The notes under the pieces: model-generated | Databases searched by the model: none | Seen by the model: only the letters and a program-made list of their open reading frames with translations | Told to the model about the DNA's origin: nothing | In this document: positions 14,626-18,428 of the stretch, in pieces | Numbering within the stretch: the stretch's first letter is position 1 | Layout of the letters: each line of letters begins with the position of its first letter | Position numbers and translations under genes: made by a program | IMG/VR virus record: IMGVR_UViG_3300042885_000020 | Location: 1-33,951 of that record | Direction: 5' to 3' (one strand) | DNA from: a virus | Length of the DNA: 33,951 nt

Positions 14626-14660
14626 TTTTGCACTTTGTATTGTGTAAAGTGTTATCTTTG
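14626..14660 (+). promoter_or_regulatory. Main early promoter, Bacteroidetes type
   Basis: TTTTG (14626-14630) and TATCTTTG (14653-14660) fit the Bacteroidetes -33/-7 consensus (TTTG and TAnnTTTG); the spacing from TTTG to TATCTTTG is 22 bases, within the range seen in Flavobacterium. A start of transcription near 14667 would leave a short A-rich leader before the ATG at 14678. This is the best promoter in the window and drives the replication/recombination genes. Confidence 0.82.
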
Positions 14661-15073: not shown

Positions 15074-15607
15074 ATGAGCCTAATTAAAATCCAACAAGAA
15101 TTAAAAGCACCTAAAAATCAATTCAATGCTTTTGCTAAATACAAGTACCGAAGTGCAGAAGATATAATCGAAGCAGTTAAACCTATCTGCCATAAGTACG
15201 GCTACGCTTTAATGCTTAGCGATGAGGTAATAGAAGTAGGCGGTAGAGTTTATGTAAAGGCTACCGCTTGTTTAAGTAACGGAGAAGATAACATAACTTG
15301 CACGGGTCTTGCTCGTGAAGAGGAAAACAAAAAAGGAATGGATGCTTCGCAGATTACTGGAGCAGCAAGTAGTTATGCCAGGAAGTATGCCCTTAATGGA
15401 TTGTTTGCAATAGATGATACTAAAGATGCAGATGCTACCAATGAGCATAAAGACGAAGTAAGCGAAGGACAAAAAGCATTTTTGATTGAGCAGTTAGATA
15501 AGACAAAGTTTACCGAAGACCAAAAAGTAAAGGCTGCCCTGAAAATCAATGCCATAAAGACTTTAGACGAATTTAACAAAATTAAAGAAACAATTAAAAA
15601 GAGTTAA
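15074..15607 (+). CDS. erf: ERF-family single-strand annealing protein
   Basis: 177 residues. The ERF signature is visible at ~88-120: GMDASQITGAASSYARKYAL, then FAIDDTKDAD, matching the KG..D.QxxGAxxSYxRRYxL and D-x-D pattern of the family. N-terminal residues ~1-75 form the beta core (KYKYRSAEDIIEAVKPI). The C-terminal ~50 residues are charged and helical, probably for oligomerisation or protein contacts. ERF proteins anneal complementary single strands and circularise or repair phage DNA. It sits next to a small SSB-like protein and the replication genes, which fits. Confidence 0.92.
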   Translation: MSLIKIQQELKAPKNQFNAFAKYKYRSAEDIIEAVKPICHKYGYALMLSDEVIEVGGRVYVKATACLSNGEDNITCTGLAREEENKKGMDASQITGAASSYARKYALNGLFAIDDTKDADATNEHKDEVSEGQKAFLIEQLDKTKFTEDQKVKAALKINAIKTLDEFNKIKETIKKS

Positions 15608-15846
15608 TGAAAGAATTGCTACCATTTGAAAGGCAAATATTGTTAGCTGAAGTATACCACTACGCTTGGTATAACGAAGAGGCATACAAAGACCTTTTAT
15701 TATTCATAGAAAAATATCAAAACCTTTTAGACAAACCTGTATTTTTAACCCAAATCAATAACAATGACACAACAACAACAAATCTTGAACCACTTGCTTT
15801 CGGGCAAAACATTGACACCAATCCAAGCTTTGACGAAGTACAATAG
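15607..15846 (+). CDS. Hypothetical early protein
   Basis: 79 residues; the start overlaps the ERF stop by one base. The N-terminal 50 residues are helical with aromatics (LAEVYHYAWYNEEAYKDLLL). The last ~27 residues (Asn/Thr-rich) are encoded on top of the next gene in another frame and probably carry little constraint. No recognised domain. Confidence 0.6.
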   Translation: MKELLPFERQILLAEVYHYAWYNEEAYKDLLLFIEKYQNLLDKPVFLTQINNNDTTTTNLEPLAFGQNIDTNPSFDEVQ

Positions 15847-15973
15847 CTTAAGATTAGCAGCCGTAGTATTTGAATTAAAACGCAAAGGCTACAAAGTACG
15901 AACGGAATTAATTAACGTTGGTACGAAAAAACAAAGTAAATTAGTAGCTCAATATTCAATTAAAAACAAATAA
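15764..15973 (+). CDS. Winged-helix / helix-turn-helix DNA-binding protein
   Basis: 69 residues that fit a short HTH domain of the HTH_39 type: ILNHLLSGKTLTPIQALTKY, then RLAAVVFELKRKGYKVRTEL as the recognition and wing region, and a basic C-terminus. It overlaps the preceding gene by 83 bases. The size leaves room only for DNA binding, so it may regulate the early operon or act with the replication proteins. Its target could be the palindrome or direct repeats at 14550-14599. Confidence 0.75.
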   Translation: MTQQQQILNHLLSGKTLTPIQALTKYNSLRLAAVVFELKRKGYKVRTELINVGTKKQSKLVAQYSIKNK

Positions 15974-15975
15974 AA

Positions 15976-16170
15976 ATGGAACAAAAAAAATGGAGTGCAG
16001 GTGCTTGGAAAAAGACAACTGCTAAAGGAGAAGTAATTAATTTTACAATTAATGATGTGCGTTACTCGATGTGGGTTAATGCTTACAAGACCGAGAACAA
16101 ACAACCAGATTACAAGATTTATGTAAACGATTTTAAACCAAAAGAAGATGCGGAAGGATTGCCGTTTTAA
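15976..16170 (+). CDS. Small protein with SSB-like acidic tip (DNA replication associated)
   Basis: 64 residues. The start (KKWSAGAWKKTTAKGEVINF) is beta-like and rich in Trp, Lys and aromatics, as in OB-fold nucleic-acid binders. The end, DAEGLPF, resembles the C-terminal tip of Bacteroidetes SSB, which ends in acidic residues followed by LPF and docks SSB-interacting proteins. It lies between the ERF/HTH genes and the DnaA-like gene. I infer a minimal SSB-like protein or an SSB-mimic that recruits host replication proteins. A full-length SSB is absent from the genome. Confidence 0.55.
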   Translation: MEQKKWSAGAWKKTTAKGEVINFTINDVRYSMWVNAYKTENKQPDYKIYVNDFKPKEDAEGLPF

Positions 16171-16172
16171 TT

Positions 16173-16601
16173 ATGCTAAATAGAAAGAAGGACATATCAA
16201 TAAGACAATTAAAGGAGTTATACTTTGCACAACGCAATACCCATTTGCAGCTACACGAAATGATGCAGCAACTTGGATTGTTAGGCATAGAAGATAATGA
16301 ACCTTTAGGGTTAGACATTGGCGCAAGAACGATTGTTAAATTGGTAGACGAGGAGTTTGAGTGCGATGTATTAATTAAGGATAGGAGTTTAAAAACAACG
16401 TTTGGGCGCAAGGCTGCGGCATATTTACTTAGAAGGTACACCAAGTTAAGCCTTAAGGAGATAAGCCAATACACAGGAACAAGCGACCATACGACTGCTA
16501 TCCATAACATAAAACAAGCGAATAACCTAATAGAAACTGAGGACTGGTTTAAAACTAAGCTAAAAAAACTTTGCTTAAAATTAGAACTTAAAGAAATTTA
16601 G
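16173..16601 (+). CDS. DnaA domain IV-like DNA-binding protein
   Basis: 142 residues. The C-terminal half (~71-125) matches the DNA-binding domain IV of DnaA: FGRKAAAYLLRRYTKLSLKE, then TGTSDHTTAIHNIKQ, corresponding to the DnaA signature GxxDHTTxxH. The N-terminal ~70 residues are not the DnaA AAA+ domain and contain no Walker A motif. It could bind an origin or compete with host DnaA. The next gene is the replication initiator-like gene, and a structured RNA lies between. No canonical DnaA box (TTATCCACA) is apparent in the region. Confidence 0.8.
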   Translation: MLNRKKDISIRQLKELYFAQRNTHLQLHEMMQQLGLLGIEDNEPLGLDIGARTIVKLVDEEFECDVLIKDRSLKTTFGRKAAAYLLRRYTKLSLKEISQYTGTSDHTTAIHNIKQANNLIETEDWFKTKLKKLCLKLELKEI

Positions 16602-18122: not shown

Positions 18123-18428
18123 ATGACCGCAAACGAATTAACCAAAGAAGCAATCAAAACTCTAAATAAAAACGGGTGCTTTGTATGGCGCAATAATAAC
18201 CTTGCGGTTAGAGGTCGCACTTTTATAGGTTTAAAAGGAGTTCCAGATGTTGTAGGTTTTCACACCCAAACAGGAGTAGCGGTTTATTGCGAAACAAAAG
18301 CCATAGGAGATAAACTTAGCAGTTATCAAATAGCGTTCTTAAACTTAGCAAAGACGGCAAATTGTTTTTGTTACATAGCAACCGAAGAAAACGGCAAACT
18401 AACCCTAAAAGAATATGAACAAGAATAG
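18123..18428 (+). CDS. VRR-NUC family nuclease
   Basis: 101 residues, the size of a stand-alone VRR-NUC (PD-(D/E)xK) nuclease. Catalytic residues: D42 in GVPDVVGF, E57 and K59 in CETKA, and Q69 in SSYQIAFLN, matching the PD...ExK...Q order. Related phage proteins are structure-specific nucleases that may cut Holliday or branched DNA. It lies between replication genes and the sigma-like gene and overlaps the latter by 14 bases. Function inferred from the motif. Confidence 0.85.
   Translation: MTANELTKEAIKTLNKNGCFVWRNNNLAVRGRTFIGLKGVPDVVGFHTQTGVAVYCETKAIGDKLSSYQIAFLNLAKTANCFCYIATEENGKLTLKEYEQE

Follow-up and report, generated by a model that had tools for sequence, protein, structure and literature searches.

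Does the 64-residue protein encoded downstream of an ERF gene in this phage serve as a minimal single-stranded DNA binding protein (SSB), or does it display an SSB-like tip on a small body as a decoy that recruits host replication proteins? The original prediction had left room for both. The sequence analysed here, which we call the window, is an IMG/VR virus record in full (33,951 bases); since the contig lacks end repeats, the record is perhaps slightly incomplete. The ORF was found exactly where it had been placed (15976-16170, plus strand, ATG start, 64 aa). Its product, MEQKKWSAGAWKKTTAKGEVINFTINDVRYSMWVNAYKTENKQPDYKIYVNDFKPKEDAEGLPF, has a DUF736-like core with the pattern GAWKK...W.N..K...KQPDYKI and a C-terminal end of KPKEDAEGLPF. 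In this core the block containing the first Trp precedes the block containing PDY, an order which we term W-first; proteins with the opposite order are termed PDY-first. The gene, its parts and its surroundings are as follows.

14627-14660, plus strand: match to a Bacteroidetes-type promoter, TTTG...TATCTTTG (pattern match only)
15074-15607, plus strand: ERF single-strand annealing protein, the likely partner (PF04404, 6e-37; phrog_155, 1.2e-44)
15607-15846, plus strand: small ORF between ERF and mini-SSB, no assigned function
15764-15973, plus strand: winged-helix HTH_39 protein (PF14090, 3.4e-12), stopping 3 bases before the mini-SSB start codon
15976-16170, plus strand: mini-SSB-like gene, ATG start, 64 aa, DUF736-like core in W-first order, SSB-type C-terminal tip
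16000-16050, plus strand: W block, residues 9-25, GAWKKTTAKGEVINFTI, matching the second half of DUF736 and of the PDY-first phage SSB-like proteins
16063-16125, plus strand: W.N..K...KQPDYKI block, residues 30-50, matching the first half of DUF736 and of the PDY-first proteins
16126-16143, plus strand: short linker, residues 51-56, differing in length and sequence among relatives
16144-16167, plus strand: acidic tip EDAEGLPF, residues 57-64, SSB-Ct-like
16173-16601, plus strand: DnaA C-terminal DNA-binding domain protein (PF08299, 1.9e-11; phrog_30669, replication initiation, 3.4e-6)

The genes for ERF, the small ORF, the HTH_39 protein, the mini-SSB and the DnaA C-terminal domain protein follow one another in a tightly packed operon. 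The mini-SSB had been described as lying next to ERF; the two do share this operon, but they are not directly adjacent, ERF being 368 bases upstream and separated from the mini-SSB by two small ORFs. The DnaA-related protein begins 3 bases past the mini-SSB stop, lacks the ATPase part and is probably an origin-binding replication initiator. Further downstream, in the same gene run, positions 18123-18425 encode a VRR-NUC nuclease-like protein (PF08774, 6.6e-6). Bacteroidetes-type promoters have a generally known consensus, and the match to it precedes the operon's first gene (14678) by approximately 18 bases. The presence of this pattern before the early operon supports, at the level of sequence, a Bacteroidetes host; comparison of the terminase did not identify the host.

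An acidic C-terminal tip ending in [IL]PF is a canonical SSB feature, and EDAEGLPF is the sole [ILVM]PF end among the 49 gene calls in the record. IMG/VR contained at least 175 candidate stretches with close relatives, from which 80 loci were kept. All copies in these loci end in GLPF, as do 117/117 close orthologues. The latter comprise 72 distinct DNA sequences, every one of which retains LPF; pS is 0.31 and pN 0.037 over the gene (pN/pS 0.12), and pN falls to 0.000 over the last three codons. The gene is under strong purifying selection. The hexanucleotide CCGTTT is fixed in all 72 sequences and the LPF codons hardly vary, so that the strongest evidence on the tip comes from more distant relatives.

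Such relatives were found by a DNA pattern scan (WKK...QPD[YF]) together with a profile-based scan. Those with bodies 57-73% identical differ in the length and sequence of the linker and mostly keep LPF (TDLPF, DNSSLPF, DKENLPF), the two deviating variants being DDIEF and NKDFDDFLKGI. The latter variant occurs in two records (L112 and L130) in which ERF is present and the core is approximately 70% identical, the LPF tip being swapped for this longer acidic tail. Relatives of approximately 23-35% identity end in DDIPF, EDLPF, EDIPF(S), SDLPF, NIPF or a shortened acidic EDLL/DDLL; one from a Rhodobacteraceae phage ends in GEDDLPF, with Erf three genes further on and an exonuclease after Erf. The SSB-like tip that had been proposed is thus present, and it is mostly LPF or IPF in the divergent homologues. 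Two groups of relatives lack it (L233-L238 and L240/241), and even there the Trp/Lys/QPD core is conserved. Since the core persists in several relatives that have lost the tip, it must have a function of its own. Seven positions are invariant in 31 aligned relatives: G9, W11, N35, K38, Q43, P44 and D45 (64-aa protein numbering). Scans of genome contigs revealed no bacterial homologue except in one Rickettsiales MAG, where the core is present in tandem copy, and tblastn of the 64-aa protein against named phages gave chance matches only. Matches to N4-like polymerases, the best for the W-first form without a tip, were likewise rejected as chance.

Searched directly, the 64-aa protein remains below the threshold of every family, and NCBIfam has no model for it. 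Against DUF736 (PF05284) it scores 14.2 bits (0.041; profile positions 9-47) and does not reach the gathering cut-off of 22.1 bits; in a scan of the whole genome it is the sole, sub-threshold match to this profile. Distant W-first relatives pass the gathering score, with up to 31.5 bits (1.7e-7). The W-first proteins do not follow the DUF736 order of blocks, the matched profile segments crossing one another. A relative with the opposite order (L187; FKN.KK...NQPDY first, W...Y.S second) matches phrog_18154 and phrog_7364, "single strand DNA binding protein", at 1.9e-13 and 2.7e-9. Proteins of this PDY-first kind in named phages carry ssDNA-binding annotation in PHROGs and GenBank, viz. those of Vibrio phage VP2 (YP_024430), phiEcoM-GJ1 (ABR68727), Salmonella phage PMBT28 (AUZ95521) and phage C75C1 (WJE88149). 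The 64-aa protein itself has no direct match to PHROG 18154/7364; the relation is visible after rotation only.

On doubling, 14 of the 20 W-first cores scored higher against the PDY-first HMM (mean change +5.3 bits, vs -1.2 for shuffled sequences), while the reverse test on PDY-first cores gave a gain in 10/10 (mean +8.9) and W-first cores doubled against their own HMM showed none. For the 64-aa protein, doubling of the core increased the score from 9.4 to 16.3 bits, the maximum among doubled shuffles being 6.6. After removal of the tips, hhalign aligns 17 columns of the two profiles in native order (score 43.7) and 45 columns, nearly the whole domain, after rotation (score 62.6, P 4.7e-14). 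A linear hhalign of both families (95%, 59 columns) was set aside; it reflects partly the tips, and once these are removed the rotated alignment is clearly better. An internal repeat was also rejected as the account of the swapped blocks, the two halves having no mutual similarity by hhalign. In the PMBT28 and GJ1 proteins, the W-first HMM finds both of its blocks, but in exchanged order. Tandem duplications of the core occur in both orders, PDY-first in Vibrio phage VP2 (L325, 1303-1779) and W-first in the Rickettsiales MAG (L242, from position 94 onward); these are the expected natural intermediates of circular permutation. Judged by their sequences, the W-first and PDY-first families are circular permutants, and the mini-SSB appears to belong to a widespread, little-studied phage family whose core exists in both forms.

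The PDY-first proteins of PMBT28 and VP2 end in NEPPMDFDDDIPF, which over 13 residues is exactly the tail of E. coli SSB (1eqq); that of phiEcoM-GJ1 ends in DFDSDIPF. PDY-first members therefore carry host-type SSB tails on a core without a recognisable SSB domain. The "SSB" labels form a chain, GJ1 having been named after its resemblance to VP2 and VP2 after its resemblance to the SSB of V. cholerae. With host-type tails on PDY-first cores, the database label may derive from the tail, and we treat it as annotation only. It is conceivable, though we hold the idea at somewhat less than even confidence, that the DUF736-like core is a distinct, non-canonical ssDNA-binding unit of approximately 50 residues, circulating among phages in two permuted orders, probably interconverted via surviving tandem duplications such as those of VP2 and L242, and repeatedly given the SSB tail of the current host; capture of tails would then be a general route to replacement SSBs. 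A plasmid search for Bacteroidetes SSB tails, made with an approximate SSB-like query, returned enterobacterial records only among the matches listed.

That a normal SSB gene is absent, as had been claimed, was borne out for the window: a PF00436 scan of the whole record at E<=10 gave no candidate, hmmscan also gave none, and neither DUF669 (PF05037) nor Enc34_ssDNA-bd (PF10991) has a match in this genome. PF00436 was also not found in ten relatives of 31-35 kb. We extended the search to 45 records (44 W-first and one PDY-first). ERF is present in 22 of these, and PF00436 is above threshold in none, one sub-threshold match being located inside an 864-residue frame; RecT was not found in 25 more distant records. 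For a control set, a different ERF served as query to retrieve 80 loci; 50 of these records were searched, 22 of them with PF00436. Eight of the 50 have a PDY-first protein near ERF; PF00436 is found in 0/8 of these vs 22/42 of the others (Fisher p 0.006). Overall, a canonical SSB is present in 0/53 records checked with either circular form vs 22/42 other ERF records, counts which include near-duplicates and fragments and are not all independent events. Almost 80% of erf genes in Firmicutes phages have ssb as a neighbour (PMC8093625).

Across the loci examined, [ILVM]PF ends occur in 37 of 1,607 gene calls. At ERF loci, nearly all ORFs with such a tip are downstream of ERF, and most start within 0.1-1.8 kb of the ERF match and encode canonical SSBs or other small SSB-like proteins; the canonical SSBs of the ERF control phages have both IPF and LPF ends. 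Proteins of 90-121 aa with DDDIPF-like tips were also observed downstream of ERF (L250, 6136-6420; L282, 3745-4020; L286, 6431-6703; L302, 6506-6844; L291, 7263-7628). They have no clear match to the mini-SSB profile, their records are without PF00436 where searched, and they may represent further families of SSB substitutes. Two ERF proteins have acidic-hydrophobic tails of their own, DDDDDIF (L214, 6838-7308) and QDDFDL (L231, 3816-4388), as if the annealase itself bore an SSB-like tip.

Could the protein be a decoy or adaptor, i.e. a small body whose SSB tip draws in or ties up the host proteins that interact with SSB, with no coating of ssDNA? The tip is invariant, the protein is tiny, and PDY-first relatives exist with an exact copy of a host SSB tail, all of which would suit such a role. 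This reading is disfavoured because relatives retain the Trp/Lys/QPD core where the tip has been lost; furthermore, tip-bearing members replace the canonical SSB in annealase-carrying records, and a decoy would not need the SSB slot in annealase modules. The decoy half of the original prediction accordingly found no support, and we consider it unlikely.

A second alternative is that the protein is an accessory of ERF, a mediator or loader that aids annealing by binding ERF or host SSB on DNA but is not the general coat of ssDNA, replication relying on host SSB. Its gene sits in the ERF operon, a phage without its own SSB has that of the host available, and such a small size is unusual for a general coat protein. 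Mutual exclusion with the canonical SSB speaks against this, as does the distribution of the family. In one record (L223) Sak4 and an exonuclease are directly upstream of the family member, and by eye the same holds for another (L219), and members also occur in phages of 75-170 kb without detected ERF or RecT. The Sak4-adjacent members and these larger phages speak for a function not tied to ERF. In addition, the PDY-first forms of VP2 and PMBT28 adjoin DNA polymerase genes. A dedicated ERF accessory is, in our opinion, quite unlikely.

AlphaFold, given the 31-sequence alignment, predicts with moderate confidence a four-stranded antiparallel sheet (residues 10-15, 18-25, 28-34 and 46-51; pLDDT 77, pTM 0.52); the single-sequence model is poor (pLDDT 70). 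Against the PDB, Foldseek and VIA-align found neither a significant match nor a recognisable SSB, sequence searches of the PDB with the profiles of the two families yielded no credible match, and Foldseek in BFVD returned significant E-values for two uncharacterised phage homologues only. Profile comparison with canonical SSBs reached 41% probability over 37 columns only, and one distant relative has a sub-threshold OB match (PF01336, 1.4e-5). The minimal SSB of the original prediction gains its support from the comparative evidence and not from a recognisable OB fold, which the predicted sheet may or may not represent. Since a single chain looks too short for a complete five-stranded barrel, the mini-SSB likely forms an oligomer. 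The lack of an OB-fold match and the missing tip of some relatives would also suit an unrelated small DNA-metabolism or regulatory protein with a coincidental LPF end, but acidic-[IL]PF ends are repeatedly retained across unrelated linkers and are concentrated in SSB-like ORFs downstream of ERF, which makes coincidence highly improbable.

A minimal SSB, on the other hand, is well supported by the conservation of the tip, placement in a single-strand annealing protein module, exclusion of the canonical SSB and homology to proteins labelled as ssDNA-binding. Weighing on the other side are the relatives that have lost the tip, those located outside recognised annealase modules, and the sub-threshold family scores of the 64-aa protein. 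We think it probable that the 64-aa protein is a miniature DUF736-like phage SSB expressed from the ERF operon, with a core that binds ssDNA and a tip that recruits partners, and that it replaces the canonical SSB; binding of ssDNA is surmised here from sequence relationships. In such a scheme the Trp/Lys-rich beta core of approximately 50 residues would coat ssDNA arising from replication and end-processing, probably as an oligomer, and the acidic ...EGLPF tip would dock into the SSB-tip pockets of partner proteins. By analogy with SSB-HK620 and Sak4, these partners are probably the phage ERF encoded upstream together with host replication and repair proteins. The mini-SSB would in this way stand in for a canonical SSB.

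Phage SSB substitutes with host-like tails were already known, as was the labelling of PDY-first proteins as SSB. As far as the literature searched shows, the W-first permuted form, the size of 64 aa and the link to DUF736 are new, and so is the exact match of a host tail on a core without a recognisable OB domain. If the proposal is correct, 64 residues are enough for an SSB, and a function follows both for DUF736-like proteins and for a very common freshwater phage gene that profile libraries miss. A family of phage replication proteins would moreover prove to be circularly permuted, its duplicated intermediates being still available. Because the E. coli SSB tail is found unchanged on an unrelated phage core, the capture of tails can be tested directly, and the pair of a 64-aa SSB and ERF could serve for recombineering in Bacteroidetes.

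Among known systems, DUF736 (PF05284) resembles the family in that distant W-first relatives exceed its gathering score; it differs in having the PDY block before the W block and a length of 99 positions, whereas the 64-aa protein has the swapped order and is shorter. The proteins of PHROG 18154/7364 share the blocks F.N..K...QPDY and W.K..G..Y.S, a core of similar size, a C-terminal SSB tip and, in several phages, the slot beside ERF, but their blocks are in the opposite order and the linker of the 64-aa protein is much shorter. With canonical SSB (PF00436, E. coli SSB) the protein has in common the acidic tip ending in [IL]PF and the slot downstream of ERF, whereas the canonical body is approximately 110 residues vs approximately 50 here, with no PF00436 match. 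SSB-HK620 belongs to DUF669, which has no match in this genome, and acts with Sak4, whereas the predicted partner here is ERF. Its last six residues (NDYPPF) are required if Sak4 is to bind ssDNA coated by this SSB and if annealing is to be stimulated (PMC5928155); SSB-HK620 thus provides the model for recruitment of a neighbouring annealase through the end of a phage SSB.
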